A stretch of 64,000 nucleotides of DNA. It comes from Tribonema minus (Eukaryota > Sar > Xanthophyceae > Tribonematales > Tribonemataceae). Within the stretch, counting starts at the first letter, position 1. Each line of letters begins with the position of its first letter. Under the pieces are notes generated by a model. It was not told the origin of the DNA. It saw only the letters and a list, made by a program, of their open reading frames with translations, and made no database searches. This document shows positions 8,179-54,442 of the stretch, in pieces. A program made the translations under genes and the position numbers. The DNA lies in NCBI GenBank assembly GCA_017506865.1, contig JAFCMP010000179.1, positions 868,001-932,000 on the forward strand. Direction: 5' to 3'.

Positions 8179-8462
8179 ACGTATGGACTTGTATTTATAA
8201 AGGCCCAAGGGAGGCCGGGTTGCCTATGCAATCGAAAAGCTTGCGTCAACGCAGCAGCCTAGTCTGCGCTGTGCCCTAGGAGCTTGGATACCGGCGCCGC
8301 AACACAGCCCAGCATTCGCGCTCCACGTGTGTACGCCATGACGCGCTCCGCCAACTCCCGCGCCAGCGATATGCTCAGCTCAATGAGGATCTGACGCTTA
8401 GCTAACCCGGCCTTGCGTAACACATCTGCCTTCCCCCCCCCTGAGCACAGTGCTGAGTGCAT
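8179..8462 (-). mobile_element. LINE-type retroelement fragment, 3' end copy
   Basis: The segment is essentially identical to 50563-50847, including the 3' end (read on the minus strand) and the frame GGGKADVLRKAGLAKRQIL...LLGHSAD. It stops where the longer copy continues, as expected of 5' truncation. A target duplication is not clear here. Confidence 0.7.
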
Positions 8463-9415: not shown

Positions 9416-9527
9416 CTAGGGCCCGTGCTTGGACACCGAGCGCCTCCGCTTGCTGTGGCGCTCATCCCTTGCCGCTGCGCTGCCCGCCGCCGCCGCCGCA
9501 GCGCTGTTGACGCTCGAGCGCCGCGGC

Positions 9528-9560
<33 letters not shown>

Positions 9561-10352
9561 GGCTGCTTCGATGCCGCACCACGCTTCCTCTTCGTGCTCG
9601 CCTGACGACTCCCTTCCATCGCCGCCGCCGCCGCCGCGCTACTGTTTTGCGCCGTATCCATTGCCGCATCGTCTTCTCTGCTGCCGCGCTGCTGCCTGCC
9701 GCCGCTGCAGCCCGCGCTGCTGCCTGCCGCCGCTGCAGCGCCTTCAACCGTCGAGCTCTGCTGCTGCTGCTGCTGCTCCTCGTCCACGGCCGTATCGCGC
9801 TTCCGTTTCCCGCCGCTGCGGCGCCTCGGTTCCGCAGGCGCCGCTGCTGCGTCATCGCACGGCGCCGCTTCAGCGGCCGCAACAGTGCCTGCGGTGCCAT
9901 CCTGCGGAGTGTCGCTGACAGCCTCCGCCGCAGCAGTGGAGGCTGCTGCGCTGTCCACAGCGGGAGCAGGCGCCTCCTCTGCGGCGGCAGGGGCAATATC
10001 ACTGCCTGAGCCCTTCACAGCACCGCCGCTGCCAATGTCACCTGCGCCGCTGTTGCCGCTGCCGCTGCCGTCTGCCGCCGTTGTTGCGGCGGCTGCGCCG
10101 CCATTACCGCAGTCAGCAGCGCCAGCACTCCCCGTTGCAGCGGTATCATTGCCGCCGCTGTCACCTTGGGCAGTTGCGACACCGCCTGAGTCGGCGTTGT
10201 CGGCTGCGTCACGCGTGCCATTGGCAGTTACAGCAGTGCCTTTGGCGGTTTTGTCAGTTTCATGCTCGCCGTCTGCGCTTCCGCCATCCACATCTCCCTC
10301 CGCCGCAGCTGCCGCCGCAGTTTTCTCGGCAGCTGCCAAATCGAAGCGAAAG
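9416..10352 (-). CDS. Last exon of gene N: A/G/Q-rich tail with nuclear signals
   Basis: This part of gene N is shown separately because it is nearly half the protein (311 residues and a TAG stop). After the acceptor it begins [11 protein letters not shown] and becomes an A/G/D/S-rich disordered stretch. It then carries three basic clusters (GGKRKRD, STKRKRG and a final [13 protein letters not shown]) separated by a Q6 and a Q10 run. The basic clusters resemble nuclear localisation signals. The open frame runs upstream of the acceptor to 10579, but there it crosses two 45-bp repeats (10385-10500), so I treat that part as intron. Several long antisense frames here are by-products of GCN codon runs. 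Confidence 0.72.
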
Positions 10353-13300
10353 CTGCAGGGCAGAGTAATGAGGCAACCGACCAATGGTTCATTGAGCATG
10401 GTGATGACCGTGGCCAGCAACGGGTATTTGCCCGTCGAATGGTTGGTGACAAGCGGCGTTTCATTGAGCATAGTGATGGTCATGGCCAGAAGCAGTATTT
10501 GCCAGTTTTGGGACTTGAAGCTGCAGCTGCGCTGAGGCAGGGTTGTTCTGAGGGGCAGGTAGGTAGTGCAGTGACGCATGTAAAACTAAAAATAACGGCT
10601 GGCGAATCAGTGACGACGCTCTTAGTCGAAGACGTCTGCAAAGCACCGAGACACTGCACGCCAGTTGCCGCCAGCACAGTGTGCTGCTTCAAGTACAGCA
10701 ACCGTCATGTGAGCGACCCGCAATGGTGCATGTAACTCTTTACACCCTGATAATTGCAACAAATGCGTAGCGAAGCGAGCATCATACTTGAAGTAGAAGT
10801 GCGGGAGGTGCACGTGTGAACGTCGCTCACATCTTCATGATCACTGGTCATTGTCTGCACAAAACGGCCACAGATCTTCAGGCCGTGCAACAGCTGATCA
10901 TGGCCCGGTTCACGTCAAGACTAGCTGCAGCCCTCATATTCCAAAGCCTCCATATAATACTGCCCGCAAACCGAAAGCCCCTCCTTGTTGCATACTTCTA
11001 TAAAACAAAAAAGAAATATGTTCAAGTGTGACGCCCATAACTGAAGTAGAGTATGCTGTATTTACTCACGTCTTGGCGGCCTCGTTGATTGCGACGAACC
11101 CCTCCTTGATGTGTTGCTCAAAGCTCTTGGAGCCAGGCAAGCGCTCCACAGCGCCCGCCTTCCGCTCCATCTTGCGCAGGTCTTGCCACACCCAGTCCTC
11201 CTCTGGAATCTGCACGGTCGTCATGAGCTAATGTAAATATCAAATGAAAATGAATCAAAAGATCAACAATAATATCATGGTCTCAGTAGCACCCGCCTTC
11301 CGCTCCATCTTGCGCAGATCTTGCCACACCCAGTCCTACTCTGGAATCTGCACGGTCGATTTGGGCTCCTGTTGATCACATATTAAATGTACAATAATTA
11401 TCCATTAACCCTTACTGAAAAATTTCCAGATTGTCAGGGTTTGTTGAAATTTCCTAGTTCTCACCACATGCGTCATCAGGGCAAACACCCTGCTTGCCTT
11501 AGGCGAGATGCACTTGAATTACGCGGTGACAGTGTCTTGCATCTGCTTTTGCTTAAACGCTACTTCAACTTGTGCGAGTCCTGGCGCACAACCCTCCTCT
11601 TGGATCTGCAACGCGAATGAACGGATGCAATTCTGAGGCAAATGACGTGCCCGTCCGACCAATAATGCGCTACGTGAAGTACAAAGCATGTTGGCGGCGG
11701 CGGCGTTTGAGTGTTATCGTTGAGACACTTTTAGACTGTCATACGACATGTAGATTCCGTACAGCAAGCTTCAAGTTAGATGCCATTCATCTGGGCTTTT
11801 TCGTGCCCTGAGCGAGAATTAACAAGGGGTACAAATCATGCGGTGACATTGTGATGTCTATTAACAGTATTATGCGGGTGGTGCACCAGTGCACGATGTT
11901 ATTTCCTACACATAGATACCTACCTTCACACACGCTGTTGAGTCTACGTTGACGATAAGTAATGTCCTGCTCCGTATCGTCAATCAACGATGATGCGCCA
12001 GAGTATAATGCAGTTCGCTACAGCCTACATCATGTACTTCCAAGTGCACAACAAAACAGTCACCTCTATAGTTTGAAGTATTTGTTGTAATGCATCGTTA
12101 CCCCAGAGCTCCTGGTGAACTGTGCTTGCTACATAGAGCAACACTTGCATGATTGAGAAACCTTATGAATGGTTGGTTAGGCTAAGGGTTAGGGTCAGGG
12201 TCACCCAACCGTACCTTGCACAAGACCTGTCAGACTCAGCCCTCCTCTGCAAGGTGCGTGCTCTTCGCTACTGCATCGAGGCAACGACTGTATGTTGCTG
12301 TAGACCAGAGCCTTCGGAATGCATTGTCTGCATGGTGACATGAATGTAGCCTACTGGTGAAAAATATGAATGTACGTATTGGTTTTCAAACGCACTCTGG
12401 GCCGCCTCAGCACTTTGATGAATCTCACAAAACTGTACTTCAAAGTATATGCTGGTGCAACATTGCTCAGTACGTGCTGCGCACCTTTTTGAACTGCCAC
12501 TCCTTGCTTTTCCCCCTCGGCTTGATGCCCTGCATGTCAACGCAACTAGGGTTAGGGTTAGGAGACAGTTCAGTTGGGATAGCGCCATCCAGCGCAACTT
12601 AGGTTAGGGTAAAACACTCTGACCCTAGCACAAATGCAACGCGATCTTAGCAGGTGAAGCAACTCTGACTGTGTGTAGCACAGCACGCAGTGCCAGCTCT
12701 TTGTACCAAGATGTCTGCTCAACCAGGTGAGGGTTAGGGTTAGGCAAGTCACACGTTGAAGCTGGTGGCGATGTTCTGGTCGACGCACATGTTTGATGCA
12801 GCAACCAAATCCATCAGACACTATTGATCTTTGGAAGTACTGAGGCGACAACATGGCAAGTCACACCTTGAAGCTCTGCACGGCACCTCGGGTTTTCCCA
12901 GCTCTTGAACACGAGGCGTCTATTAAAGCGACAGTGTGGCAAGTCACACATCAAAGCTGGCGGCCATATCCTGGTCATTGCAGAGCATATCACTACTCTT
13001 CAGCTCCTAAAATGAATAGACTGTCGGTGCGATTCTGGCCATCAACAAGGCAAGTCACACCTTAAGACTGGTGTCCTGATCATTGCGCAGCACCTCGCCC
13101 AAACTGAGCAGAGTATTAGTGCGATAGTGGTGACATAAAGGAGAGTCACACCTTGAAGCTGATGGCCATGTCCTGGTCATCGCACAGCACCTTGCCTGAA
13201 TTGAGCACACTAATAGTGCGATGGTGGCGACAACAAGGAGAGTCACACCTTGAAGCTGATAGCCACAGCACCTTGCCTGACTTGAGCAGACTATTAGCGA

Positions 13301-16300
13301 CAAAAAGGAGAGTCACACATTGAAGCTGATGGCCACAGCACCTCGCCTGAATTGAGCAGACTATTAGCGCGACAGCGGCGGCAGAAAGGAGAGTCACACC
13401 TTGAAGCTGACGGCCATGTCCTGGTCGTCGCGCAGCACTTTGCCTGAATTGAGCACGCTATTAGTGCGATGGTGGCGACAAAAAGGAGTGTCACACCTTG
13501 AAGCTGATGGCCATGTCCTGGTCGTCGCACAGCACTTCGCCGTTCTCGAGCTCCAGTGCAGGCATGCGCTGCTGCTCCATCTGTCGGTCGCTGCGCACGA
13601 TCAGCACGCGCGTCTCGCGGCGCCCTGCGATCGGCGGTTACGGCAGTTACGCATGACGGTTGGTCACCGAGTGTAACCGAGTATATGCATACTAATGCAG
13701 TAGTGCAAGCACTAGTGCTTGCCCGTACTTGTTCATATTACGCCAGCTGCACCTGTCGGTCGCTGCGAATGATCAGCACGCGCGTCTCGCGCCGCCCTGC
13801 AATCGGCAGTTTCGGCAATTGCGAATCACGGTTACAGCACGCCCCATGACGCAGTGAAGTGACCCTGGCATCTGCCATGGTGGAAACCTACTAATAATGT
13901 AATCTTCTTTGCAAAAGACTAGCAACAGTAATGTGCTTCCCAAATCTACAAATGGGCACCATCCCGAACCACCATACATGCATAGTAATATTTGTTCTAC
14001 GCTCGTCAGGTGCACAGATGAACACATGCCTGCATTATGCACCGTCTACTCTGAAGAACACCCTGATTGAAAAGTTGACAAGAAGATGATATTCATAGTC
14101 TCCGGCTATGTGACGATTGAGCGAAAGGGGCACATGAGGTCTTATTTGATGCGGCAACTTCAACTGGCGATACCATCCATCCTCAAGCATTGCAACTTCA
14201 CGTGTAGTGTGACGCATGTTTTCCTGGCATATGATTGAAGTACATGATGTGGAGATCCAACTATACGATTGGGCAGGCTACAGGCAACTTCAATTTGGCG
14301 ATGTCGATGGACTTGAAGTTTGCGCAATACTCCCCAAATTCAAGTGGAGCTTCAACGGCAGGCAGTTGACAATGTCACAAAACTTCAACTTTGGCATATA
14401 TGTTATCTACCACCCAACCTGAGGTTCTCACTCACCCTGATGGGTGTTGCCCTGCATTTTATCAAAATACACAATGATGTCCCCAGCGCAGAGCCTGCAT
14501 GACAGTGACGATCAGCAGCAAGCAGCGAAGTTTCTTTCAGTTTCGCACATGCATACGTACATGCGGAAGAGGCTGAGTGTTGCCGTTGAATGTGCATGCA
14601 ATAATCCACTTGCTCGAGCAGACTCTCACAGTTATGGCAGCAGGGGCAGTGCCAGCTGCAGCGGCCTAACCTAACCCTAACCCTAATCCAAGCCCTAATC
14701 CTAACGGTGGCGGCAAAAGCGGCCGCAGCGACAGCAAGGGGGTTGGCGATTGCAGCGCCAGTGCAGCGCATGCGCAGCGAGTAGCAGCCATGTGGTGGTG
14801 AGAACTGCTTTGCATCTTGCCTGCAGTATTCACAAATGGTGCGCATAAAAGCAGCGAATAGGTAGCATGGCGCTCGCCCGCATGTCGCCTACTGTACTCC
14901 TGACCCTATCCCTGCAGCTGGTGCAACTGTGCTTCAGCCAAGGCACAATGGTGCTCTGCTGATCTGAATCTGTAGGGGAGAGGGCACTAGACAAATTTGC
15001 TTGGCAGAGTGCTCCAAGCAGCTGCAGGCAGACAAAAGCAGTGAGTACTCATGTGTCACTTGGCAATTGCCACAATGCCCGCTGTGCTGCTGACTCTACC
15101 CCTTACGTTTGCTGCAACTGTGCTTATCTTACCAAGGCACACTGGTGCCCTGCTAGCCTGCAATTTGTATGGTAGAGGGCACTCGACAATTTACTTGGCA
15201 GAGTGCTCCAAGCAGCTGCAGGCAGACGAAGAGCTGTGTCAGGCACCAACTTCAAGCACAAACTTTAAACTGCAAGGCCCGCATCTGCAGTTCAGATGCC
15301 CGCGAAGCAAGCTCGTAGAGTGCGTGCACCACATGCAGGCGCTCTGAAGCATGAACTCTCACCCTAGTGTTTTGATTTCATGTGCATGTTAAGCCAGCGT
15401 GTGCCGTGAACTCTCACCCAAGTGTTTTGATTTCACATGTTAGGCCAGCTTGTGCGGTGCGCCATCATGTATATATACCAGCTGAAAAAGTGGAGCGTAA
15501 TGCGTTTCGCGAAAAGCGACCAGCTGGGAAGCAGTGGTGGTCGCCTCTCTCAATGAGGAAGTGCTGCTAGTATGTATGTACGATGGAGCAGGGTAGAACT
15601 TTGTTGAGTCGCGAGTCGTGAGTCAAAATTGATACTTGTGGTTGTTGCCCGTCTTGCATGCCTTCACACTGGAGCAAGAACCTCAACAACAACGCATGAA
15701 GTTGACAGCACGGTTCAATGCATGTACTTACATGGGCGGCTGCACTTTGCGTCGGCGCTTGCTGGCGCTCCCCCCATCCGCGGCGGCTGCAGAAGAGCCG
15801 CAATGTGCATCCTCCTGTGACAGCGATCAACACAGCCAAATAAGATGCCATATACACCAACATGCACAGGGCTAGCGTCTAAACTAAACTCTTGCGCCAA
15901 ATACGTTGCGCCAGCGTGTTGCGACAGTTGCGCCAGCTGCCCCGGCAAGTGACTCGTGGCGCAACTGGCGATACTCGCACGTTTACTCACGAGTATCACT
16001 CATTACTCGCAAGTTTACTCGCGAGTATTGCCTAGGGTTAGTGCTTTAACTAGGGTTAGTCATGCCCGTAACCCTAACCCTGTAAGCTCTATGGGCCTTA
16101 ATAGTGACTGTAGAAGCACTAGAAGCCTTAATAAGAGTTGCGCCAGTTGCGCCATGGCTAAACTAGTTTCGCCAGGGCTCAAAACCCGAAGGCAGTTGCG
16201 CCAAGGCCGTCTGAGTTTAGACGCTAGCCCTGAACATGCACCAACGTTTTTGGCGCCAATTACGTGGCGCTATCTACACTTGCCGCAGCTGCACCGGATC

Positions 16301-19300
16301 TGCCATGCACGTCCTCCTGCGTCAGTGATCAACACAGCGACAAAATATGCTACATACATACTTCCACGTCCTCTACCGTCTCGCTGCTGACTATGTCACA
16401 GGACAATTGAATACATATGGCGTTTGTATACATTGGGCATGGGGATCAAGCAGAGATGGCGCGTTAACTTGTTGCTCCGGTACGAGTACAAGTTCTTGTA
16501 CCGGTTTTCACCCGTAACCGGTGGCCCGCTGCGCCGCACGCGTTAACCGGTACGTGTAACTTGCCATGGGAGGCAACGCGTAAACACCCATCGGTTCCGC
16601 AGCTGATAACTTGCGGTGCAAGTTAAATGCCCGTTCCGCTTTATTCTGTCGGTGCTCGGTAGTTTTGCTGGGGAATCATGGTTGTGGTTGGTAGGACCGA
16701 TGCGCGAGCGATGTTTGCCACTTCCTTATGATTGAGCAGCTCGTAAAGGCCTTCTAGCTTTGAGCAGGGCAAGGTGAGAGTTCGTGAAACTATGTGTAGC
16801 GACGCACGCACGCTCGGCCGCCTGCGGAAAAGGTAGCGACGCCGAGCAAGCAGTGCTGCACAGCACGCGGCTTTCAGCTTGATGCGTTCACTTCGTGAGT
16901 CATTTGTAGAGGACGAGTTGTGCTGGCATGCTGCTGCCGTGACGTGTGTGCCGCACGCTATGCATGTCATGCAAATGACTTTTTTGAATTCGCGTGCAAA
17001 TGCGTGCCCACCTCTTGCAGCCTTCACATTCATGCCAGTTATGAGTGAGTACATGAGCATACTATGACGTTTGCATGACCTGGTAGGCTTCCAAATAACT
17101 GGTGCAGCTGGTGAAAGCTTGTTGAAACAGTAATGACCGGTGCAACAAGTATACGGGTACCGTTGGCACAGCTCACCAGTTAAACCTGTACGGGTAGCCA
17201 CAGCTACAAGTTTTGGAATACTCGTACGCGTACTTGTCAAAGATTTTCTCGCGCTACGCGCGACCGGTGCAGAGATGGCACTACGCGCCATCTCTGGGAT
17301 CAAGCGCAGATTCCCCCTAATGCTACCCCCGAACCCTCAGCAAGGGGTTTTGCTGTGACACTGCATGCAGCTTGGCGGGGAATACTCATGAGGAAAGTCC
17401 GTGCAGCCACTGGGTCTAGACGATTCTGGTAGTTCTGGAATGCTACTGCGGTGGCCTCTCCAGGGCCCTGATGCATCGACAGTTGCACCTAATTTTGCGG
17501 CGACTCTCCTGCGTCAGTGTTCAGCAGCGGTGCGGAGCCCAACTGCACTAACGTGTCCGGTACCCACTTCGGTGCAGCGCTGCGATTCCAGATGGGGAGA
17601 GAATCAGACATGTCTGGAGCGTCATCTTGAAGTGCACTATACTGCCTGATTTCAGCGCATCAGTGCTCAGCAAGAGCGCGTCACAGCGACTCCTTAACTG
17701 ACCAGGGGTAGCTGGAGTGTCACCTTCAAGTGCACTTCGATTGGCGTTGCCTACATTCTGAGCAGCTGTCAGGCATAGTTGGAGTCTCGCCTTGAAGTGC
17801 GCGTCACTGCATGAAGAAGCGGGCCTTGCCTGCGTGGTGAGGGGCTCCTCAACTGACAGGCGTAGCTGGACTGACAACCTGAAGCGCACTTTGCTACAGA
17901 AGCGATACCTGCGTCGAGTGGGGCTCCTCAACTGACAGGCACAAATGGAGCGTCACCTTCAAGGGCACTTTGATGCATGAAGTAGGCCTTGCCTACATTC
18001 TGAGCGGCTGACAGGCATAGTTGGAGTGTCACCTTTAAGTGCACATTACATGAAGTGGGCCTTGCCTGCGTAGTGAGGGGCTTCACAACGGACAGGCGTA
18101 GCTGGAGTGTCGCCCTGGAGTGCACTTCGATGCATGAGGTGAGCATTGCCTACATTCTAAGCGGCTGACAGGCATAGTTGGAGTGTCACCTTGAAGTGCA
18201 CATTACGGCAAGAAACGGGCCTTGCCCACATTATGAGCGACTCCTTAACCGACAGGCATAGCTGGAGTGTCAACTTCAAGTGCACTTTGCAGGAAGTGGG
18301 CATTGCCTGAATTGTGAGCGGCTCCTCACCTGAGGCATAGGAGTGTCAACTTCAACCGCTTCTATTGGGTCTTCCGGGATATCTTCGGCTGCATGCCCTG
18401 CCGCCGCCGCCTCCGCCGCCAGAGATTCTGCCTGCATCGTGGCCAGTGAAGTGCGCAAATACACAAATACCAAGTGCGCATTGATCACTTCAGCTGGTCT
18501 GACAATACGCCTTCAGCCCAGGCTTACTATCGTTTAGATGCCAGAAGACCATTGTTAAGCGAGCATCTGCGCAGCGCAACTTCAAATGTCACGCGTGCAC
18601 TGGCAGTGATTCGTCCTGCACAGCGGTCAACAGCGCACACTTCGAAGTATGCAATACGGAACATGGTTAAGAATATGCAGAGGGCACACTGCAACTGTCA
18701 GGCAACACATCACAGGTGAACAAATTGGACCACTTTTCCACCTTGTGCGCTGCAGTATTGCAGGTAGGTAGGGGTGCGCAGAGCCCGCGCTTGCGCTTCA
18801 CAACGCCATGTGGCACACTGTTGAAGTCCTTAACTTGAAGTACCTTGAAAACGCGTACAGCGGCGGCGCGCAACCAACATACATACATACACCGCCCCCC
18901 CCCCGCTGTACCAGCGCCACTTTTCAGCGTTGCGCTGCAAGGTACTGCGTAGCAGAAGGACTTTGAAGGTGACCGAGAATTGATAATGTCAGGTGCTTCA
19001 AGGAGTGCTTCTTGTTTGGGGTGCAATGAGCGCTCTGCTAAATCCCTGCATACATACCTCTGCTGCACTCTGCCGCACGCACTCGATCACTCATCCAGGT
19101 ACGGTGTCAAGAACATACTGCCAATTATTTAGCGTTAACATGTTGCTACATACATGGATACGAATCAAAAGATCGTAGAGCTCTAGGTGACAAAGGATGG
19201 TTAGCCGCAAGTGCCTTCCACCAATAACCGTGGTCGCCGCTGTTGCAGTCATTGGCCACGAGTCAAACAGTGCCATCATATCCACAGGTCAAAAGACTTC

Positions 19301-21212
19301 TGTGTGCGAGCTTTGTAGCGTTCGAGGGCATGGGTGTTCAGTATGGAAAGGTCTCACGTGTTCAGTAGGCCAGCTCCAGCTGGTAGCCCAAACACAGGAG
19401 GTGCATACCATACAGTGTGTTGCATACATACATACCTTTGCTGCCCTCTGCCGCACGCGCTCCAGCGTCGCATCCAGGGAGTGCTGCGCAAAGGCCAACA
19501 TACGGTATGTTTGATACATACACATGGTATGTAGATACATACATACCTCTGCTGCCCGCTGCCGCACGTGCTCCAGCGTCGCATCCAGGTAGTGCCGCGC
19601 AAAGGCCAACATACGGTATTTTGATACATACATACCATACAGTATGTTGATACATACATACCTCTGCTGCTCGCTGCCGCACGCGCTCCAGCGTCGCATC
19701 CAGGTAGTGCTGCGCAAAGGCCATCACCTGCTGCCAGCGCCTCTTGCTCATCTGCAGCACGGCAGCAACAGCATGTGTGTAGGTATTCTGGGCATTTCAG
19801 GCAAAATAGTGACTGACAGGTCGAGCAATACAACGCGTGAACTTCAAGTCTGGTGTCAAGCTGGCACAGGTACACTTAGTGGGTACTTCAGAGTATTTAC
19901 TGTTGCAATGACCTGCTGACAGCGGTTCTTGGTCATCTGCAGCGCAGCAGCAGAAGCATGCAAGTAGGTACTCCGCGAATCTCAGGGGGAAACGTGACTG
20001 ACAGGTGGAGCTATGCAGCGCACAAATTGTTAATTTCAAGTGTGGTGTCATGTGAACTTCAAGTCTGGTGTCAAGGCGCCACCGGTACACGCAAAATTAG
20101 TGGGTGCATATAAAGTGTTGACTGTTGCAATGACCTGCTGGCAGCCAGCGTTGCTTGGTCATCTGCAGCGCGGCAGTAGCCGGCAGCGCAGAAATTCAGC
20201 AAGTCGAGCACTGTAGCATGCGTTGTTACAACTGCGTGAAGCGCAAATGCCGGGCTGCATTGCAGCAACAGTGTCGAAGCTCCTAAAGCGCAGTGAAGAG
20301 ACTGTTGCTGCAGAGGTTCAAACCCTAGGAGCACATGGGATAACCGGCCACTTGAGAGGCCTTCATGAATACTGCAACCGATTGTGTACTACTTGAAGTA
20401 CTCTCTCGTGTATTACTTCAGGGACTTCCTTACCAACTTACCTTCTCCTTTTTCCTCCCCTTTCCCGTGTACTTCTTCATGTACTTGTCGGACAGCTTCG
20501 GGCACCACCTGCGACGCATGAATGGGCACGTCACCTTAAACTTGAGATTGAAATATCAACGGGCTGCGTTGTTGTTGCAGTTGATGCACCATGTTTTTCC
20601 GGACACACACACGCCCTCAGGGGATGAGAGACACTTGTTCATTCATTCCAGACAGGAACAAGCAGAGGCGGGGGGGGGGGTTGCAGGGAGAGGGAAGAAG
20701 GCAACACGGCGGCTTGAGGGGGGGGGGGGGGGCTGGCCTTATCAGGCCTAATGGTGCTAATGAGGTCGCTCCTGCTTGCCCCCCCCCGCCCCCCTAACCG
20801 CAACCAATGGTGCGTCACTGAGACCAGAGTGAGTTCTGTCACGTCTGCGCATTGGTGCTGTTCTCAGTTGCTGGTGTGCCTGGGCACAGAGGCATAGCTA
20901 GGGTTGGGGTTAGATGCACAACGTGCAGTGCTCAACGCTAGGTGACCGCAAGTGGTGCTGCAGATGCAGCATAGAAATCGCAGCAACTGATGTTTGCTGT
21001 CAGGCCGTGGTGTGCTGGTATGCCGTACTAATTACATACCCTGTTCGCCACCAAATAGGACTGTACGCAGAACTGTCAGCATGAGACCAAGGTGAAGCGG
21101 GTATGTCACAATCAGCTTTATCGGCACAAGCGCTTCATGCTTCTAGCTGGCAACGAGCTAGTCAGCTTGAAAAGCGACAACGCGCCGTCCCTCCCTTTTT
21201 TGGGTCGTTTGT

Positions 21213-21243
<31 letters not shown>

Positions 21244-31010: not shown

Positions 31011-31580
31011 CTCGCAAACTGGCAGCATACGAGCAAGGCACTATTTGGCGAAAGTGTGCTTCTGGGTCAGGGTGATACTGCAGTTGCAGTATTTTCAAAT
31101 ACATGTATGGTATGTGCAGGCTGTCGTCGCTCTCATAGTCGCTCATCTGTCAAATTGGCGGCACACGATCACGGCACAATGTCGCAGAAGTGTGCTTGGG
31201 TCAGGGTGATGCCGCACTTGAAGGTTATAGAAACATAGATTAGCGTGTGTTCTGCTGCTTGGAGTTCACATGTTCTGGATCAAGGTGATGCCGCAGTTTG
31301 AGTTTTTCAAACATATGTATAGTATGTGTTCTGTCGTCGCTCTCATAGTCGCTCATCTTGCAGGCTGGCGGCACACAATCACGGCACAAATTATGCAGAA
31401 GTGTGCTTCTGGGTCAGGTGATGCCGCAGTTGAAGTATTGTCAAAAATAGATAAAGCGTGTGTTCTGCTTCTTGAAGTTCACATGTCTACCCTCTATCAA
31501 TGTGTCGTCGTACCTGGTTGATGCAAATCACTTGCAGACGCGTCGCTCTCATAGTCTCTCATCTTGCAAACTGGCAGCAT
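30590..31580 (-). repeat. Copies of both edges of gene N exon 1
   Basis: Downstream of exon 1, GAGTTCACT-rich units contain two further copies of its 3' end and donor (about 30680-30715 and 30783-30835). Upstream, three copies of the 5' end, coding MSDYESDDS or close variants, lie at about 31112-31152, 31322-31362 and 31528-31566, in units of roughly 200 bp. The word before each ATG ends CAG, CAAG or GAG, as if a 5'-leader acceptor had been copied with it. Confidence 0.75.
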
Positions 31581-33153
31581 GCAAGTACGGCACAATTTGC
31601 AAAAGTGTGCTTGGGTCAGGGTGATGCCGCAGTTGAAGTAATATCAAATACATGTATTTGTGTGTGTTCTGCTTCTTGAAGTTCGCATGTCTACCTTCCA
31701 TGTATGTCGTCAGACATGGTTGATGCAAATCACTTGCAAACTGGCGGCACACACGGCGGGTGCTGTCTGCACATTGCGTCATGACCATGCTGCCCTATCA
31801 CCTTGCTGTATGTTCGACAAAACTTGCTGATGACGGCAGTTGAATCGTGATTGCCCGTCTCGCAAACCGGCAGCAGCGCAAATTGTGTGTGCGCGCCATA
31901 GGTGAATAGCTGGTAGCACCATGTTCTTACTTTTTCTGAAACGTGCTGTGCATATGCGAGCAAATCGTGCCAAGGGGCATTGCAAGCGCTACGGTCTTTT
32001 ACTATAGTGACGTCTAGCATGGCGCGCGAAAAAGGCCAATTGATTGACGTCAAACTTGTCTCGATGCGCATTGATGATCCCTCATGTCTCGATGCGCATT
32101 GAAGATCCCTTCTAGATGATGTCGCAAGCATCACAGCAACACGCAATTATCAAGTGTGACGGTGACGGTACGATCTTTCATGAGCCAACAAGAACATCAA
32201 TGTTGACCCCTGCCGACGATAGGGTGACAGACAGCTGTTTGAACAGCAGCACGGACGACAAAGACGAGTACTGTTACGCATTTGTGTGTCATCAGGCGGG
32301 CTGCTGAAACACTTTGACAAATGTGGACAGAAGGCCCAAACTGTCAAGAGAGCTGCCGGCATCTGGGGTGCTCTCACTGAACAAGGCAAGTTTGGTTAGA
32401 TCAACCCCTGATGAAGCTGGCACTCGACAGGGTTGAACCTTGCCCTGAACACTGTGGGGTGATCATTTGGAAGTAGATCAGCTCTGATTGAAGCTGGCAT
32501 GCAGCAGATCTGATCACTTAAAAAGCCGGACCAATTCAAGCAGCTGTGTAGTTATGTGGGCGACGGCGCTGAGGCTGCATCATGCACCCCCTCCTAGCGG
32601 GCACTCGGAGCATGAAGGCCCAGCTGGTGGCACCACGCTTGTGCGACGGACGAAGATTTGAGCGCCGTGCTGTGTATCAGCGAGTGAGTGCTGCTGAGAC
32701 GCATCATGCACTAAGCGCCTTGCATCACAGCTTCGTGCGGCTACATCAATTTTGTCGGTGCGATGCCATGTTTTTCCTTGGTCCTTCGTGTGTACAAACT
32801 GTTGGCTCAGCTTAGTTCCTTTTCAAACGCCGATCTTCGCATCAGCAGCATGGCTAAGAACGACGACAGGCCGGAGGCACGCGTCTGAGGCATTCGCCGC
32901 GATATCAAACTAAAAAAAAAACATTGATTGGATTGGATTGCTCACATCAAATTCGCTCCAGGCTCGCCTTCCTGCCTGCCAACCCGTGCAGCGCGCAGAG
33001 TGCCTCCGTTTCAACGTCCTCAACTTGTTCACACTGGCTCGTTCGCCTGCTGGCCTGAATGACTTTGGCGCGCGAACAGACTTCAACTCTGGAAGTTGAT
33101 CAAACTGGTGTGTGTTCTGGTGCAGAGGTTCCTGGTGTGTTGTGTGGGGCGTG
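31580..33153. other. Divergent intergenic region between gene N and REXO4
   Basis: The two start codons are 2.1 kb apart in opposite directions, so control elements for both should lie here. The gene N end holds further leader-repeat units. 32390-32520 has related words AGATCAACCCCTGATGAAGC and AGATCAGCTCTGATTGAAGC. I see no clear TATA box or known motif. Confidence 0.4.
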
Positions 33154-36100
33154 ATGAGTCAGAAGCTTGCTCCTGTTGTCAAGCAGCACGGCGCAGCCAG
33201 GCAGGGAAAGAAGAGGCCTCGCAGCGAAGGCGCGGCGGCAACATCAACTCTCTCAGCCACCACCGGTGGTGCAGCTCTGGTGGCGAAAGCTGCTGCCGTC
33301 GGCAAAGATAAGGGCACTCGCAAGGGAGATAAAGTACAGCAGCAGAGCCGCGAGCCGCTGAACGGGCAGCGCAAGCAGCAGACCGACGCAGTCAACAGCA
33401 GCGGCCATGCCTCAGCTAAAAAAGCAGCCAAGGCGAAGGAGCAGCACCAGCAGCCAGAGGCTCAAGCACCTGCTCAAGCAGCGGAGCGGCAAACTCAGAA
33501 TGGTTCAACCAAGAGGGCACGAGTTGGCGCCGCAGTGGCAGCTTCTTCTGGCGGGGAAGCGGCACAAGCTCAGCCCCAAACCAGCATGAAATCCGGTGCC
33601 AAGAAAAGAATAAAACTAGACAACGGCAACGATGCAGCAGGACAGCATGCGGAGCAGCAGCAGCAGCAGCCTGCAAAGGCAGCAGAGCCTGGCGATGCTG
33701 GTGCCGTCAAGGCAAAGAAGAGAAAGGCGACTGCTCTCAATGGCAGCAGCAACGAAGGAGGGCCGTCGGCAGGAGCGGAGCAGCAGCAGCTGCTGCAGTC
33801 GAGCAGCGCGAAGCAGAAGCGGGAGCGCGGTGCTGGCGCAGGGGGTCCTGGGGGAGTGCAGTCCAACTGGCAGGTAAGATGGGTGCTGTTACATAAGCGT
33901 ACTTTGTGAATTATTTATTGACAAACACCATGTGGCAACCGCAGCAAGAATAGATGACGATGCATCCCAGTCAGCCTGCTGTGGGCGGGTTGATAGTAAG
34001 ATGGCCACATTGGCTCTTGAAAGTATTGATGGCCTGCATCTGCTGGTCATGTCAAAGGCTGCACTGAGGATAGCACGGCATTTTCCTGGTTCCTACCAGA
34101 AGACATGACGGATATTGACGATTGCTTGAATGTCGTTTACACGAAACTGCATGAATTACTGCACGAACTCACTGCAGCTGCCATAGCAAGAGCCCTTTAT
34201 GATCAACTTTTTGTCCTCAAGGGAGGCGTGCGCAGAGGTGTCAGGGTAGATTTAAGGTGAGGGTTAGGGTTTGGGCCGACCAATGGCAATCGCACAGTGT
34301 TAGTGTTAGGGTCAGCCCGTGCGCAAACCTACAGAACGCCAGGACGGCAGTCGCCTCCTTACCTGCGTTCACTGCTGGTATGTATTTTGAAACTGCACAG
34401 TGTATTTTCAATGCAGCCAGCTGCATGGCTCACGTGTTGACATCGCTGGGTCGGTATCATTGTTGTGCGTGTACAATGTCTACTCGAGAAGGCAGTGTTC
34501 CCCGAGGCAGTGCACATGCCTGGTTTACGTATTTTTCATATGGATAGGCGTAGTTTTGCACACACAAGAATGGATTTGCATTTATGAGCAACCTGCAATC
34601 ATCACTCTCTCAATGGGCATTGCCCGTGGCATTGACTGCTGTCAGCGGTTTTCCAGGCATGCCATTGCAGAGTACTGCATGCCGGAGCTAAACAGCGGCA
34701 CCGATGCTGCTGTTGAGAAATGATGTTGGTCCAGTGTTAGGGCTGGATTTAGGGTTAGGGTTGGGGTTAGGGTATACCGTTGTTGTCACGAGGGCGCTGA
34801 CGGGTGGCCGTGTCGTACAACTCTGAGATCAACAGGCTTTGTGCAAGAAAGGCTGCTGTGCTGATCGCTGCTGCGCTGACAGCTGCTGCGAACAGATGAT
34901 GTCGCGCAAGTTCAACCTGAATTAGGCGGTGTGCTGATCGCTGCTGTGCTGATCGCTGCTGCGCTGATGGCTGCTGTGCTGGTCGCTGCTGCAAACTATG
35001 ATGTCGCGCAAGTTTGAGCTCAACCAGACAGTGTGCAAAAAGCTGCTGTGCTGATCGGTGCTCTGCTGATCACTGCTGCACTGACTGCTGCTGCGAACAG
35101 ATGATGTCGCGCAAGTTTGAGCTCAACGAGGCGGCGCGCAAGGCCAAGGTGGACAAGACGCGGCGGGATATGGAGGCAAAGGAGCTCAAGCAGAGCAGAA
35201 AGTGAGCACTGTCACCGAGTGAACTTGAAGTAGAGTCAGTAAATGACTCAAATTACTTTACATAGTATGGAGGCCAAGGCGCTCAAGCAGAACAACAAGG
35301 GAGCATTATTTTGTACAGAGGTGTAATTCAAGGAGAGATCTGCAAAGCGTTCAAGCACAGCAAAAGTGTGCATTACTGTACCACAAAGTGAACTGTTGGA
35401 AGTAGTACACGACCTGAGTTACTCAGTATGGAGGCCAAGGAGCTCAAGCAGAGCAAAAGGCGAGCACTGTGACAGAGTTTACTTCACTTGAAGTATTGTA
35501 AGTAGAGTCAGCAATTGACACTCTCAGTCAATGATCTGCACTTGAACTTCATCACGGACATGTATGCTGAGGGCCTCTTTGATATGCTATGCCGAACGTG
35601 GTTGCGCACACGCTTTGCAACCATGCTGCATGCCCCACGTGGTGTAGCGCAAGTCGCGTTTTGGTACAGGTCTGAGAGTTCACCATGTACTCACTCATAT
35701 ACCTCGACTGCATGTTGCAATTCAATCAAGCGCACTCATGGCTCCTGTAATTATGCGCTGCGCTATTGGGATGCCTGATCGATTACATCTACAGTAGCTG
35801 TACAGGATGCTGTGGGTTGCTCATGACGACAGTCGCCTCTGTCCGCCTTGCGCACAGCTGCTCAAGTTGGCAATATACATAGAAGTATGTATGTACACCG
35901 CTGGCGGTATTGCAATGCTTGGACATCTACTCATTGGGCAACCTCCCTCCAAGCTTCACATATCATTTACTCTGAATACATCTACTGTAGTATGCTGTAC
36001 GTTGTTTCTGATGGCAGTCACTTTCGTTCGTGTTTGAATGTCGCTGTGTGTCTTTGCAGGAAAGGCAAGGGACCGTCGCCGGAGGTCTGTGAGCAGTACG

Positions 36101-39100
36101 TGGCACTGGACTGCGAAATGGTGGGCACGGGCGTTAGCGGCAGACACAGCGCGCTGGCACAGGTGAGACTGCTTCACATACATAATGACAGTTACGCGCG
36201 ACAGTTACATGACAGTTACACAGTACGCGGCGCTCAACTGTGAAGTGGTGGGCACGGGCGTCAGCGGCAGGCACAGCGCACTGGCGCAGGTGAGCCTGTG
36301 TTATATATATGCAACATTATGCAACAGTTGCGCGCTGAATTGCATGCCTCGGTCCGTTGCATGTGGCACTTACGTGACAGTTACATGCTACTCTGAAATG
36401 GTGGGGACGGGCGTTGGCGGCAGGCACAGCGCGCTGGCGCAGGTGAGACTGCTTCACCTGCATAATGACAGTTACGCGCAACAGTTACATGACAGTTACG
36501 CAAACGTGGCACTGGACTGTGAAATGGTGGGCACCAACGTTAGCGGCAGGCACAGCGCGCTGGCACAGGTGAGACTGCTTCATATGCGTCTGACATTTAC
36601 ATTCGACAGTTACATGACAGTTACGCAGTACGCAGCGCTGAACTGCACAATAGTGGGCACTGACATAAGTGGTACTTACGTGGTGAGATTGCCATATGTG
36701 CACAATGACGGTGACGCGCAAAAGTTGCGTGCTACACTCTAAATTGGTGGGCACCTGCGTCAGCGGCAGGCGCAGTGTGCTGGCGCAGGTGAGCCTGCGT
36801 CACATGCATTTAAGTTTAGGCTCGACAGTTACATGACACTGTGAAATGGTGGGCACCTGCGTCAGCGGCAAGTGCAGCGCACTGGCGCAGGTGAGCCTGT
36901 TTCATATTCATGTGTCAGTTACACGTGACAGTTACATGAAACAGTTACGCGCGGGCATTAGCGGCAGACGCAGCGCGCTGGTGCAGATGACACTGCTAGC
37001 TACACATACTTCCCACTTTCCTCTCGCTCTCAGAAAACATCAGCTGCAGGCACAACGTGATGCATTTCTGCTCGCTTGTGAGCATTCACTCACTTGTGCC
37101 ATCTATGATTGCGGAGATTGCCTGCATTGCCGTACAACACGGCCCAAATCAAGCGTCCCTGGCCAGTTTGGAGGGGGCAAAGCGTGAATTCACAGTACTG
37201 CTCGTGCGAGCAACTTGAACTATTCTGCCCCCCCCCCCCCCCCCCTCCCCTCCCTTCCCTCCACGTGCAGTGCTGCATCACCAACTGGCACGGCAACATG
37301 CTGTACTGCTCTGATGTACAACCTAAACTATCCTGCGCCCCCCCCCCTTCCCCCCTTTTCGCCTTACACAAGCACCATCACTGCTTATGTGAACCTTTTC
37401 TTGCCCCCCCCGCCCCCCCCCTCTTACGTGCAGTGTTGCATCACCGACTGGCACGGCAACACGCTGTACTGCTCGTATGTGCGCCCGCCCGAGCGCGTGA
37501 CGGACTTCCGCACGTTTGTCAGCGGCATACGCGCGACGCACCTGAAGGGCGCTGACGCCGTGACTCTTCTAGAGTGCCAGAAAGCCGTGGCAGCGATTAC
37601 CAAGGTGCAAAAAGCAAAATTAGAGTTAGGATTAGGATTAGGACCAGGGCAGGGATTTGGGGTTAGGGTGGGAGTTAGGGTTAGGGTTAGGGTTAGGGTT
37701 AGGCATACGCGCGACGCATCTCAAGGGCGCCAACGCTGTGACTCTGCTGGAGTGCCAAAAGGCCGTGGCAGCGATCACCAAGGTGAAGAAGTCATAACTG
37801 GGGTTAGAATTAGGGTCAGGGTTAGGGTTGGGGCAGCGCTTTGGGGTTAGGGTTAGGGTTAGAGTTAGGCATGCGCGCGACGCATCTCAAGGGCGCTGAC
37901 GCCGTGACTCTGCTAGAGTGCCAAAAGGCCGTGGCAGCGATCACCAAGGTAAAGAAAGCAAACTAGGGTTAGGGCTAGGGTCAGGGCTAGGGTTAGGATT
38001 GAGCGGAGGCCAGGCCAGGGGTTACTTTTGTTTCAGGGGTTCTTACTTTGGCTCACTCTGTGGAAAGGGTCAGATTTTGTTAGCGGCACACGCGCGACGC
38101 ATCTCAAAGGCGCTAACGCCGTGGTGCCTCTACAGTGCCAGAACATCGTGGCAGCACACACCAAGGTGAAAAACAGCAAAAATAAGGTGAGAGTTAGGGT
38201 TAGGGTAAGGGCTGGACGGAGTCCAGGGTTTACTAGTGTTTCAGAGCTTATCGTGTGGCCAGGTTCTGGAGGAGGGGCTACAATTTTGACTGCCAGAAGG
38301 CTGTGGCAGCGATCACCAAGGTGAAGAAGATTGACTTAAGGTTAGGGTCAGGGTTAGGGCTGGGACAAGGTGGGGAGAAAAGCTAGTGCAAGGTTGGGGT
38401 TAGGGGTGGAGGCCAGGTGTTACCATTGTTCTCTTAGGGTTAGGGTTAGGGTTAGTCAGCGGCGCCTTGAAGTAGGGCAGTGTCGCCACAGTTGCTTCGA
38501 GCAGCGCAGCGCGGCGTACCTTCTGCAGTGCTCAGCGCATCGCGGCGCGCACAGGCGATATGGTGGCGTGGCGCCTGCTACTGGCCATCAGCGGCTCGGT
38601 GTTCTCACGCTGCGCAGCTGCGGCACGCTTTCCGCAGTGCTCAGCACAGCTATAGTATACTGCTATATGATGCTGCGCGCCTGTGAGTTGGCACTGCCTG
38701 CGTGCGCTGCTGCGCCGTCTCGGCTGCACGCCTGTCAGTTAGCGGGTCCTGTGCGCAAGCGCTCAACTCAGCATGGTACCCGCGCACACAGGCGCCGCCA
38801 GCTGCCGCGTCTGCCATCAAAGTACTTCTTTAAGTATCTCTATCGCTGGCTACGTGGCTACTTTCGCGGTGTGCTCGCTTCAGTGCAAGCGCATTGCCGC
38901 AAAACGGTGTGTGCACGCTGTCCGCAAATGCCATGTAAATCCCACGTCACGTGTACTTTGCTCTTTCTCGCTGCGCCCGCAACAGGGCCGCATCATTGTG
39001 GGGCACGCCCTGCACAACGACTTGAAGGCGCTGATGCTCAGGTGAGCTAGCCAATACATACCTACCGCACTTCACCATTACCCAAGAAACTCGGCTGACA

Positions 39101-41344
39101 ATGTTGGGGCTTGCGCAATCATCTGCACAGATGTAAGGGGCGTGGAAGGGGGGAGGGGGGAGGGGGTGTTGAGTTTGCCACTCAACCCCCAAATGCATCG
39201 GCATTCTTCTCTTTAGCGTGAGCGCTCCCCCCTGTCAATACCTACCTACCCCAAGGACCCTTCAAAAATCTGCCAGCGTCACGCTGGGATGCTGCCCCAC
39301 GCTAACTGGCTGTCATTGTGTTGTGCGTGACGCAAAGAGCAGATCGTTGTCAGCAGTGTTTTTTTTGTGTCCGTGTTGCAGAGACGCACAGGCATGCATG
39401 TATCCCACCCAAATTAGAGATGAGCAGAAGGCTTCTCCCGTGTGCAGCCCGCGTTGTGGCTTCTCCAGCAACTTTGCGACAAATGGAGTTGAGCTTTAGG
39501 AGTCAACCTGTTGACAAGGTCAAGCATGCCATCACTCATTGGACATAAGATCAAAAAACATGAGGGCACCACGGTACAAAGAGCACATGGTTAGGGGTTG
39601 CGGATGATGGGGTAGGATTGTAGAGTGGGCAACATCCGGTATGCATGTATGGGTATTCTTTTCTTATATGATCTTTTCCCGACAAAACTCTTAGAGTCAT
39701 ATGGCCGATGCATGCTGGCCATACTTCTGCTTGCGCATGGTATCTTCATTGTTGAAGTTGCATGCACAGTGTGCGCCTCTGTGCTGTGGCCGTGCAGCCA
39801 CCTCGATGATAACACCTCGCGACACTGCCGTAATTACGGCCCATAAACCCTGTTCTACCCTCTTGTAATGATCTTCAAACTTGTTGTTGAACTCTCGTGC
39901 TGATTCGACTTTGTGAAACTGCCGTAGTTTATGCCCCGTGAAAATGCCCTACACTCTGCAATAATATCAGACTTGTGCGCTTCGCGACACTGTGAACATG
40001 GTAAACCTGTCGCCTACACTCTGCAAGAACTTCATTTTTGCAGTATCACGCGCCTCGCTGTCTCATGTTGCAGCCACCCGAAGAACATGATTCGCGACAC
40101 AGCCACGTACCGGCCATATAAGCGCCCGAATCGCGCTGGCAAGCTCGCGCCCAGGTGAGCTGCGTGCGCCGCTAACCCTAGACCTAGGCCGTGTGGTCCA
40201 TGCTTTAGGGTTTCAATTGGGGCTAGGGTTAGCTAACCTAGGGTTACCCTTACCCAAAACCTAATGTTAACCCCAATCCAACCCTTGACGTAAGCCGGCG
40301 GCCCTGCTTGCCCGTGCGGATTATGCTTGAAGGTTGGAGTTAGGGTGAAGATTAGCAATGTCGCTCTGCCCCGTGCGCCGCCACTGGTGAAAGTACAGAT
40401 TGCGTGATATATACATGCTGTATCACATTGTAGGTCCCAAACCACAGCCGACGGTTCCTTCTCTCCCAGTGCCCTCCCTTTTTGCTCTTGGCTGCTCACA
40501 ATAGCCAATTTCTGCACCCTTATTCTGCCTCGACTCTCATCGCTGCCTCTAGATATGTACAAGCCGTGAACGGGGATCAGCACCATTGTTCCACATGGCA
40601 CGTGCCCAAGCTCTAGGTTACTTCTTGCCATGTGCTTGTAGTACACAGCCATGCTACATTACATGCTTGTGTGCACAAGGTGTTTTATTTGAACACAAGG
40701 ACCTGAAGCTGGTCAAGGCAAACAGCTTGCACTTTCGCAGGGCCTTCGGGGCTAGGCTTAGGGTTGGGGTAACGTACGCACGCGTTTTGTGATAGTGGCA
40801 GTGCCATCTTGGCTATCTGCTAAGAAACATGTCCAAGCACTCAGTCAGTGTCACAGAGCGCGAGTGTCGGTGCAAATTGCACGAGTGACGGTGCAGCCCC
40901 CCCCTCCCCCCCCCCCGTCCCCTCGCCCATCTGGCGCCGCGGAGGGAGAAGGGGTTGTGGTGAGGATACAGATCAGGCTGTGGCAATCAGGTCCACGTTT
41001 CTGATGCCTCTTGCGCTACAGTCATTGATAAAAACTATGGTAACAGGACTGACATTTGGCCCCGCACCGTATCACAAGCCCCCCTCCCCTTCACCCCCCC
41101 CGCCATCTGCCTTGATGTCCTGGCACCAACCCCCCCCCCCCCCCCCCCTTGTAGGTCTCTGAAGCATCTGGCGCTGGAGTTCTTAGGCAGGGAGATACAA
41201 GGGGGCGAGCACAGCCCCGCTGAGGACGCGATCGCGGCCATGGATCTCTTCAAGTTGAAGTGGGCGGAGTGGGAGACGTCCCTCAAGCAGGGGCGCGTTG
41301 GCAAGAAGGCAGGCGCCAGCAAGCCCGTGCGGCAGATAGCGTGA
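33154..41344 (+). CDS. REXO4: RNA exonuclease 4 homologue (DEDDh 3'-5' exonuclease), seven exons
   Basis: Exons: 33154-33873, 35101-35201, 36060-36162, 37434-37604, 38986-39041, 40074-40154, 41155-41344. They total 1422 bases (473 residues); all introns are GT-AG and phases match. Residues 1-240 are disordered, basic and Q/A-rich (GKKRPRSEG, KKRIKLD, KKRKATA), fitting a nucleolar tail. The catalytic domain follows: ALDCEMVGTGVSGRH (motif I, D and E), the CCITDWHGNTLYCSYVRP strand, TDFRTFVSGIRATHLKGAD, GRIIVGHALHNDLKALML (motif II D), HPKNMIRDTATYRPYK, then EHSPAEDAIAAMDLFK (motif III H and D). This order is diagnostic of the Rex4/ISG20-like family, which trims structured RNA, chiefly pre-rRNA, in the nucleolus. 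The start at 33154 opens the basic region; an upstream in-frame ATG at 33112 would add 14 unlikely residues. Introns carry many exon-edge copies. Confidence 0.9.
34250..34775 (+). repeat. Interstitial TTAGGG tracts in REXO4 intron 1
   Basis: Degenerate tracts lie at 34257-34275, 34301-34315 and 34735-34772. They are read on the plus strand, like those in intron 4. Confidence 0.7.
34893..35466 (+). repeat. Edge copies on both sides of REXO4 exon 2
   Basis: Copies of the 5' edge (ATGATGTCGCGCAAGTT) lie at about 34895 and 34999, before the true exon at 35101. Copies of the 3' edge (ATGGAGGCCAAGG...CTCAAGCAGA) lie at about 35268, 35345 and 35430, after it. A GCTGCTGTGCTGATCG unit repeats between the 5' copies. 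Confidence 0.8.
36221..36987 (+). repeat. Seven decaying tandem copies of REXO4 exon 3
   Basis: Copies of the motif I exon and its donor lie at about 36221-36289, 36387-36441, 36500-36567, 36627-36690, 36731-36788, 36834-36889 and 36950-36987. Five of them still end GCGCAG or GCACAG followed by GTGAGNCTG. The first reads ALNCEVVG (catalytic D to N). The third keeps ALDCEMVGTNVSGRHSALAQ intact. Spacers repeat words like GACAGTTACATGACAGTTAC. The true exon is 36060-36162, because only it has the acceptor and phase that fit exon 2. Confidence 0.85.
37267..37325 (+). repeat. Upstream copy of the 5' half of REXO4 exon 4
   Basis: GTGCAG followed by a near-copy of the CCITDWHGN... start (here CCITNWHGNMLYCSD) lies 163 bases before the true exon. 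Poly-C tracts precede each copy and could act as pyrimidine tracts. The copy breaks off after about 50 bases. Confidence 0.8.
37615..38330 (+). repeat. Four partial copies of REXO4 exon 4, mostly joined to TTAGGG tracts
   Basis: Copies of the 3' part of exon 4 (RATHLKGADAVTLLECQKAV...) end at donors near 37782, 37949, 38165 and 38320, each followed by GTRAAR. The first two begin right at a TTAGGG array, as GTTAG then GCATACGCGCG or GCATGCGCGCG, so the telomere-type repeat meets mid-exon sequence at the same base. The third and fourth are more diverged, and TTAGGG tracts lie between them. Confidence 0.85.
38185..38456 (+). repeat. Interstitial TTAGGG tracts in REXO4 intron 4
   Basis: Tracts lie at 38188-38212, 38337-38362 and 38435-38456 with variants such as TCAGGG and TAAGGG. 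They continue the TTAGGG/exon alternation that starts at 37615. Confidence 0.75.
39045..41150. other. Introns 5 and 6 of REXO4
   Basis: No further exon is seen. Degenerate TTAGGG/CCCTAA tracts lie at 40165-40265 and 40750-40770. A CGCGACACTG word and a GCCTACACTCTGCAA/GCCCTACACTCTGCAA pair recur at 39810-40030. Long C runs lie at 40900-40920 and 41090-41150, the last directly before the exon 7 acceptor. Confidence 0.5.
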
Positions 41345-41631: not shown

Positions 41632-42388
41632 CATCATAAGCATGAGTTGCCTCACTGCTGTGTTTATGAACTACGCTAGAAACTACACACCTTACGACTC
41701 CTGAGACCTCAGTTCCACATGCCCATGTGCTGTGTGCAAACCCATATCAAATGAGAGCATAGCCAGCGGCCAAAGGCAGTGGAGAGAAGTCCTGTCAGGA
41801 AGTCATGGTGTTGGGTATCTTGTATAGAGCACAAAAGGCATGTCGTGTACCAAGCGGTTACACAACCCTACTTCAACAACGGCTCCACCTAGGGTCGCCT
41901 CACCACACACGCCCCCTGCATGGCTCTTCTGCTCCGCAAGTGGAAAGACATGCACACATGTGAGGTGCCCTAGGTGCTACACACTCAGTATCTCTACGAA
42001 TGCAAGAACAGCAGCCCTCCGCTACCGCCGAAACTCTCGAAGAGAACGCGGGCGTCTGGCATATACCACTAACCCTCCGCTACCACCAAGTCTCAGAAAG
42101 ACTGCAGCGCGTCTGGCCAGAGTAGTACCTGCGTTGCTGCAAACAATACAATCTTACTGCTGCAGCACAAAAACAAGTTTGAGCAAGCAACTTGCTCCGC
42201 TGCTATATGCGCCCCCGACATGTTGGCACTGCGCAATCAACGCAAGCAAACACACCACCATTCTACTTCAACGTACGCCCCCGACATGTTGGCACTGCGC
42301 ACTAATCCCCCCCCAGCGTTTGTGTCGAACACACGCGCAAAACAAGTGCGCGGTGGCCGAAACAATCTTTAGGGTGGGCGGGTGGGTT

Positions 42389-44485: not shown

Positions 44486-45014
44486 CTACGGTTAGGCACG
44501 TCGCTGCACGCCAAAGCAGCGTTGCTGCTGCTGTTGCTGAACTGAAGGTGGCGCAGTAGTGTCGCTGTAGCTCGCCACAACTAGCACACGCCCCCAGCTG
44601 TTGAAATCCCGAAGCTCCGCCGACTGCCCCTGCTTGATGCTGCAGCACGAGCTCAACGGAGCTTGGCGCCGCGTACTGCTGCGCTAAGCCTTCCCAGCGT
44701 GTCTCCTGGCTGGCTAAAGACTGCCGAGATCTGCAATCATAAGCATGAGTTGCCTCACTGCTGTGTTTATGAACTACGCTAGAAACTACACACCTTACGA
44801 CTCCTGAGACCTCAGTTCCACATGCCCATGTGCTGTGTGCAAACCCATATCAAATGAGAGCATAGCCAGCGGCCAAAGGCAGTGGAGAGAAGTCCTGTCA
44901 GGAAGTCATGGTGTTGGGTATCTTGTATAGAGCACAAAAGGCATGTCGTGTACCAAGCGGTTACACAACCCTACTTCAACAACGGCTCCACCTAGGGTCG
45001 CCTCACCACAATCC

Positions 45015-47427: not shown

Positions 47428-47929
47428 GCCATAGTCATACCACTCATGAACTTGACGTGCGTATCGGAGCCAGCTGATGCCAAAGCCTAATTTATTGATG
47501 ACTTACACATATGTCTCATGAAATAAATTGATATATTCACGGTGTCTCATAAATCGATGTTTTTCATGTTATCAAGAGGATTGTCAGCGCGCACCGCTTT
47601 TCATTCACCGCCACGCCCTGAGACTGCACATATATGTCGTCTTGGGATGTCACTGAGTTACTATCAAATCACGAAAAACAATGGGCTGGCATTGATATGA
47701 TTTCCGGCAAAGCGTCGGGAACTGAGGTGTTTGCACTGGCAAGGGCTCTCTGTTAACCTCTGACTTCGAACTGGAACAAAGGTCGGACTTGCCCCTACAA
47801 CGACCCTCATAGATGCTGATGCAGTGTCATATGTCGCATATGTGTATGACGCTGCAGTGTTTTGTGCCAAGACAACCTATGTCTTGTTCAATGCAAACAA
47901 GCCATTGTTCACGAATGCCATGCACTGGC

Positions 47930-53560: not shown

Positions 53561-53599
53561 GACTGGTCCGCAGCGCAGAAGGTGTGCACTGGCAGTAAC

Positions 53600-54290: not shown

Positions 54291-54292
54291 TC

Positions 54293-54439: not shown

Positions 54440-54442
54440 TAA

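Follow-up and report, generated by a model that had tools for sequence, protein, structure and literature searches.

The DNA analysed comes from the yellow-green alga Tribonema minus, which has a genome of 158 Mb, and comprises a 64-kb stretch of one contig; this whole stretch is referred to as the window, and positions are window positions unless a contig is named. The window contains REXO4 on the plus strand and a gene designated gene N on the minus strand, and array units made of an exon edge plus its splice site, about 80-200 bp long, are repeated head-to-tail in the adjoining introns. The REXO4 exons read from the window give a peptide that is a 98% match to the annotated T. minus protein P0001, and exons 2-7 as read by eye have the boundaries of P0001, except that P0001 has LAPR where the draft has P; exon 1 is absent from P0001. 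Exon 2 (35101-35201, set by P0001) has two acceptor-side copies at 34852-35099, found by self-comparison and alignment, and two donor-side copies at 35266-35484, both of which have lost the GT. Alignment likewise placed these donor-side copies, six copies including the donor site at 36221-36997 on the donor side of exon 3 (36060-36162, P0001), and one acceptor-side copy (37238-37317) and four donor-side copies (37702-38367) of exon 4 (37434-37604, P0001), so the preliminary description of this DNA, which had exons 2, 3 and 4 flanked by copies of their edges, was correct for REXO4. Most copies share 80-97% identity with the exon edge, their spacing is uneven, and at each duplicated edge P0001 uses the exon-proximal copy. 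Exons 5, 6 and 7 lie at 38986-39041, 40074-40154 and 41155-41344, and a search for repeat families in introns 5-6 and 6-7 found none. Telomere-like AACCCT/GGGTTA stretches occur interstitially at 414-462, 719-748, 2219-2309, 37652-37997 and 62932-62966, the fourth sitting among the donor copies of REXO4 exon 4.

Gene N was modelled on P0121, a transcript-derived protein of a relative, which is identical to gene N at 291 of 332 aligned residues and maps to it exon by exon from 31562 down to 15731 on the minus strand. With GT-AG boundaries, 12 exons yield an open coding sequence of 1002 nt; exon e4 was missed by tblastn and its position was set by eye. Since this coding sequence ends at 15731, the stretch from 9.4 to 15.3 kb is probably another gene, and the gene N of the preliminary description is probably two genes, of which the upstream one is the 12-exon gene. 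The first bases and upstream flank of exon e1 (31514-31562) are a copy of the start and flank of e2 (30922-31018, set by P0121), with 86% identity over 120 bp in the self-comparison, and an array of such e2 copies at 31116-31741 encloses e1. As P0121 holds both e1 and e2, this copy of a junction seems to be in use as an exon. Exon e3 (30051-30145) has an acceptor-side copy at 30282-30367, and the acceptor region of e4 (28643-28695) contains, at 28699-29276, the real site and 10 copies, an exact count for an array type that had been described as reaching about 13 copies. Exon e5 (27330-27404) has an acceptor-side copy at 27737-27789, and repeats at 26971-27149 resemble e5 donor copies, a link made by eye for repeats that were tallied as interior. 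Copies are present on both sides of e6 (24907-25047; acceptor side 25150-26227, one donor-side copy at 24715-24864), e7 (22750-22815; one acceptor-side copy at 22911-23018, donor side 22244-22619) and e10 (19662-19751; acceptor side 19905-20179, donor side 19049-19611), on the donor side of e11 (18330-18431; copies at 17685-18323) and, as a single copy at 16282-16358, on the acceptor side of e12 (15731-15814, followed by the stop codon). Exons e8 (21453-21535) and e9 (20442-20508), both set by P0121, bound an intron in which repeat families were sought and none was found.

The 11 introns of gene N contain 18 repeat families, of which 12 straddle an exon-intron junction (3.6 expected with random placement), one abuts a junction and five are interior, one of these five being the e5 donor copies of the by-eye reading. 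Local repeats hold 39% of the intron bases, in keeping with the earlier statement that copies make up much of the intron sequence, and the accompanying statement that the exons of gene N are flanked by copies applies to most exons but not to the e8-e9 intron, nor to a single gene. Further direct-repeat arrays at 11150-11358, 12942-13833 and 14892-15238, assigned to the minus strand from the preliminary description and the reading frames, lie past the stop codon of gene N, and the arrays at 11.1-15.3 kb belong to a minus-strand feature. No convincing Pfam match was obtained with nine exon peptides of gene N, and P0121 gave only a weak match to PF09747 (E 0.42), so the gene was left without a name. 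A protein search with E values up to 10 returned the single relative, P0121, and together with the lack of a convincing Pfam match this suggests that gene N may be lineage-restricted or fast-evolving. With the exception of e1, no further exon-edge copies were found within the proteins P0001 and P0121.

Several other repeats were recorded in the window. A long run of direct matches with 71-88% identity between 47921-50564 and 53585-60376 resembles a duplicated element or segment and has few junction-like arrays. Two pairs are 100% identical and are probably recent copies (8179-8462 with 50563-50846, 284 bases; 41633-41907 with 44736-45010, 275 bases). Two dispersed repeats, one at 11691-11838, 25865-25999 and 53941-54084 and the other at 2548-2700, 19160-19386 and 63826-63999, have copies that are 81-91% identical and lie partly within introns of the region, unlike the private junction arrays. 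Long minus-strand open frames with alanine, glutamine and serine runs (9416-10579 and 42626-44485) are of a type typical of the CAG-like repeats of T. minus.

Among local pairs less than 5 kb apart in the window, the self-comparison gave 95 direct and 2 inverted, which agrees with the earlier observation that copies lie on the strand of their gene, as expected of tandem duplication. Every array unit includes an exon edge of its own gene, and three units searched against the whole genome had 7, 5 and 3 matches among the best candidates scored, all in their own intron. The splice dinucleotide (GT or AG) is kept in 59 of 67 copies, a retention slightly above that of neighbouring positions. The dN/dS ratio was 0.32-0.40 between seed and copy and 0.47-0.58 between copies (the ranges reflect the transition weight), and 2 stop codons were present in 964 codons of the copies where 6.8 were expected. 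Judged from these sequence comparisons, the divergence of the copies fits nearly neutral decay away from a seed that is itself conserved, and some copies may be constrained, as the copy-to-copy ratio and the number of stops are both below the prediction of plain neutrality. At sites where the T. minus exon differs from that of the relative, 30 site-copies were scored, of which 9 carry the relative's residue, 14 the T. minus residue and 7 neither, a distribution indicating that the copies differ in age and that some retain older versions of the exon edges. In arrays of at least three copies the nearest kin of a copy was another copy in 19 cases and the exon in 13, with 3 ties, so arrays grow from both.

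The pattern is present on many contigs. Twenty regions of 10 kb, chosen by position and analysed independently of gene models, contained 180 direct and 3 inverted local pairs, with at least one direct pair in 17 regions. Repeat families numbered 74 and took up 23.5 kb of the 200 kb, and among their conserved hexamers the donor consensus GGTGAG was the most strongly over-represented (14 of 74 families, 2.7 expected, z 6.5); GGTGA led at word length 5 and GGTGAGC at 7, and at length 8 the leading word was TGAGCGCT (6 families, 0.62 expected), which is not a plain donor; TGAGCGCT may overlap donors of the form GTGAGCGC. Strict donor motifs were 2.7-2.9 times denser within repeats. Hit tables for chaperonin and kinesin genes also list exon edges with two or three consecutive matches to the protein profile (C51:21979-22639, C5:352998-353558, C135:208164-208583 and C511:561699-562092). 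The preliminary description had spoken of a genome-wide phenomenon, and the 20 regions together with eight other gene regions support this as a sample; we infer that it continues across the genome beyond that sample.

Junction bias was measured in 44 introns of 10 genes, comprising the two genes within the window and 8 other gene regions, in which junctions were fixed by protein homology and not by the repeats, using Pfam matches (chaperonin and kinesin genes), P0001 and P0121. The homology matches gave 38 exon pairs, from which 28 introns were kept; 10 were dropped for want of a definite junction (all 3 of L043, 2 of L041, and 1 each of L037, L039, L040, L042 and L044); C51 (L031), the REXO4 exon 1-2 intron and one duplicate L039 hit from the exon list were also left out. 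Tandem exon duplication copies an entire exon along with its two splice sites; in the family search, which took in no more than 120 nt of exon on each side, the straddling families of the first 33 introns extend 13-115 nt into the exon. Those 33 introns held 28 families, of which 21 straddle a junction (9.4 expected if families fell at random within their intron, P=5e-5), 4 lie next to one, within 15 nt, and 3 are interior. In the pooled 44 introns, many of which are without any repeat family, 46 families were found, with 33 straddling, 5 abutting and 8 interior, 2 of the last at 85% identity or above.

A null simulation of 3600 uniform duplications, in which the rate of change in exons was 30% of that in introns and families were detected as in the real data, predicted 32% straddling against the observed 33/46 (P=3.9e-8) and, for families of at least 85% identity, 35% against 22/24. 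The preliminary reading of recurrent tandem duplication tied to junctions is upheld by this comparison. The simulation detected 73-75% of straddling and 58% of interior duplicates; it drew introns evenly and not by length, which raised the straddling share, and it modelled duplication and decay without deletion sheltering, base composition or homology-driven regrowth. As the simulated intron sequence was random and had no low-complexity runs, families were recounted more strictly with masking off, a complexity filter and a cut-off of 1e-4. The recount gave 29/39 straddling overall (10.9 expected), 14/19 outside the window (6.5 expected, P=5e-4) and 9/12 in the genes that had been looked at least before the count (3.3 expected, P=7e-4); with masking on, the figure outside the window was 17/24. 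Duplicates in L039 and C135 were already visible before the sequences were fetched, and when these and the window genes are removed 9 of 14 families straddle (P=0.013).

Comparison of junctions with other intron positions, which the preliminary description had proposed as the test that could refute it, gave a divided answer. A repeat spans 16 of 66 junctions compared with 22-28% of intron control positions (P=0.31), base coverage being no higher at junctions because the copies themselves occupy intron interiors. Coverage of this kind does not reveal the starting point of a family, but as a finding against the bias it holds. With repeats restricted to at least 85% identity, 11 junctions were spanned against 3.4 expected (P=1e-4), although identity favours conserved exon sequence, a bias that was for this reason built into the simulation. 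Stop codons, which are coding edges with no splice site, had straddling repeats in 0 of 7 cases, two of the seven having fewer than 300 bases downstream. A general effect of coding edges was set aside on this result, which in a small sample favours a link to splicing or to exon chromatin.

Ordinary intronic minisatellites are local direct repeats whose units, from tens to hundreds of bases long, become divergent over time, and they are not expected to be linked in particular to splice junctions. The T. minus units are similarly direct, local and diverging, but differ in that 33/46 families straddle a junction, a difference seen in families and without an excess in the position-level test.

Tandem genomic duplication has been named as a route by which introns are gained (PMC3443670); in that model an exonic AGGT segment is doubled and each copy supplies one end of a new intron. 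The T. minus arrays share with that model a head-to-tail duplication that takes place locally inside a gene, enlarges its intron sequence and leaves the protein unchanged, but their units lie across junctions already in place, include sequence from the exon as well as the intron, and make introns longer that were there before. An exonic segment supplying new intron ends was not found as the rule, given the 33/46 families across an existing junction, to which e1/e2 of gene N is a possible exception. An intron of an RdRp gene in potato arose when an intron-exon structure was duplicated in tandem (PMC4974935); the segment comprised the branch site, polypyrimidine tract, 3' splice site and the beginning of the exon. 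The T. minus events are of the same kind, and e1/e2 of gene N resembles the potato case; the latter is, however, one event in one gene that gave a new intron and exon, whereas in T. minus many genes have arrays, with as many as about ten copies, almost all of them apparently silent. Introners also are intron sequence with splice sites, but their families are dispersed over many genes (PMC9860276), whereas the T. minus units tested are private to one intron. An introner makes a new intron by inserting itself, frequently with a target-site duplication. The polyubiquitin gene UBC contains arrays of dual-specific splice sites (PMC10809524) and is similar in being a tandem array of AGGT-containing junctions; from their sequence, T. 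minus donor copies that read CAG|GTGAG might in principle be used as donor or acceptor. The UBC repeats are protein-coding and spliced, whereas the T. minus copies are intronic with putative sites only. The earlier statement that no named system was known to do this genome-wide was therefore too strong, a route having been named and the potato case published. Single junction duplications have already been published, and what sets T. minus apart appears to be the bias towards junctions together with arrays that occur in many genes; no description of junction-copy arrays was recognised in the open-licence literature, as judged by titles and the openings of abstracts.

The best explanation, which we consider probable, is that T. 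minus introns lengthen by junction-biased tandem duplication and that the resulting spare junctions decay roughly neutrally. Segments of about 80-200 bp across an exon-intron junction would be duplicated head-to-tail, repeatedly, and the duplicate would end up on the intron side of the working splice site, where it could be removed with the intron and hence at little cost. The exon-adjacent copy would stay functional, the remaining copies, proposed as decoy sites in the preliminary description, would decay as spare junctions, presumably mostly unspliced, and regrowth of the array would start at the exon edge or at copies already there. Directly observed are the copies themselves, which are in direct orientation and local, their divergence, the retained GT/AG and the excess of families at junctions. 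Removal by splicing accounts for tolerance of the duplicates and not for their excess at junctions, because duplicates inside an intron should be tolerated too; either duplication is initiated at exon edges more frequently than elsewhere, or arrays at edges persist far beyond what slower decay alone would permit. We infer that the excess comes from commoner duplication at exon edges and not from better survival there. In a more specific form, put forward tentatively, a DNA-level duplication process is directed to junctions by a hot spot tied to splicing, transcription or exon chromatin, and would have built much of the intron sequence, recorded former exon edges and occasionally made a new exon.

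It is rather unlikely that tandem duplication is uniform and that junction arrays merely outlast others, with the seed held by selection, near-exon deletions purged and homology kept for regrowth. The higher detection of straddling duplicates in the simulation, the position coverage, which is no higher at junctions than in introns, and the seed-copy dN/dS, which suits a conserved seed and a decaying copy, are all consistent with such survival, but the null that already included slower exon decay fell far below the straddling observed, both overall and among families of at least 85% identity; versions enriched by deletion sheltering, base composition or homology-driven regrowth may come closer. 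Maintenance of the arrays by selection, for regulated splicing, exon definition in long introns or alternative exons, appears improbable. The intact dinucleotides, the low number of stop codons and exon e1, which begins with an e2-start copy and is present with e2 in the transcript-derived protein of the relative, would accord with a selected function; against it, the copies are diverged and vary in number, many introns have none, dinucleotide retention barely exceeds that at neighbouring positions, and P0001 and P0121 contain no more exon-edge copies apart from e1. Assembly artefacts are a very improbable source of the arrays and were set aside, as the copies have diverged from the exon edge and are unevenly spaced, 9 of the 30 informative site-copies retain the relative's residue and not that of the present exon, and the pattern recurs on many contigs. 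If the repeats were introners, or some other mobile element that is dispersed and has splice sites, they would be expected in introns and with such sites, as they are, and introners are common in aquatic lineages (PMC9860276). This origin is nonetheless hardly credible, as each unit holds the exon edge of its own gene and the three units searched matched only their own intron among the best candidates scored in the whole genome; if these three are typical, a dispersed element can be set aside.

Intron lengthening outside mobile elements is poorly known, and in T. minus the growth of introns by junction-biased duplication appears to begin at splice junctions. The genome offers many natural duplicated splice sites next to real ones, which makes it possible to ask how the spliceosome chooses among near-identical neighbouring sites, and whether spare junctions, as e1/e2 of gene N suggests, may act as seeds of new exons and introns.
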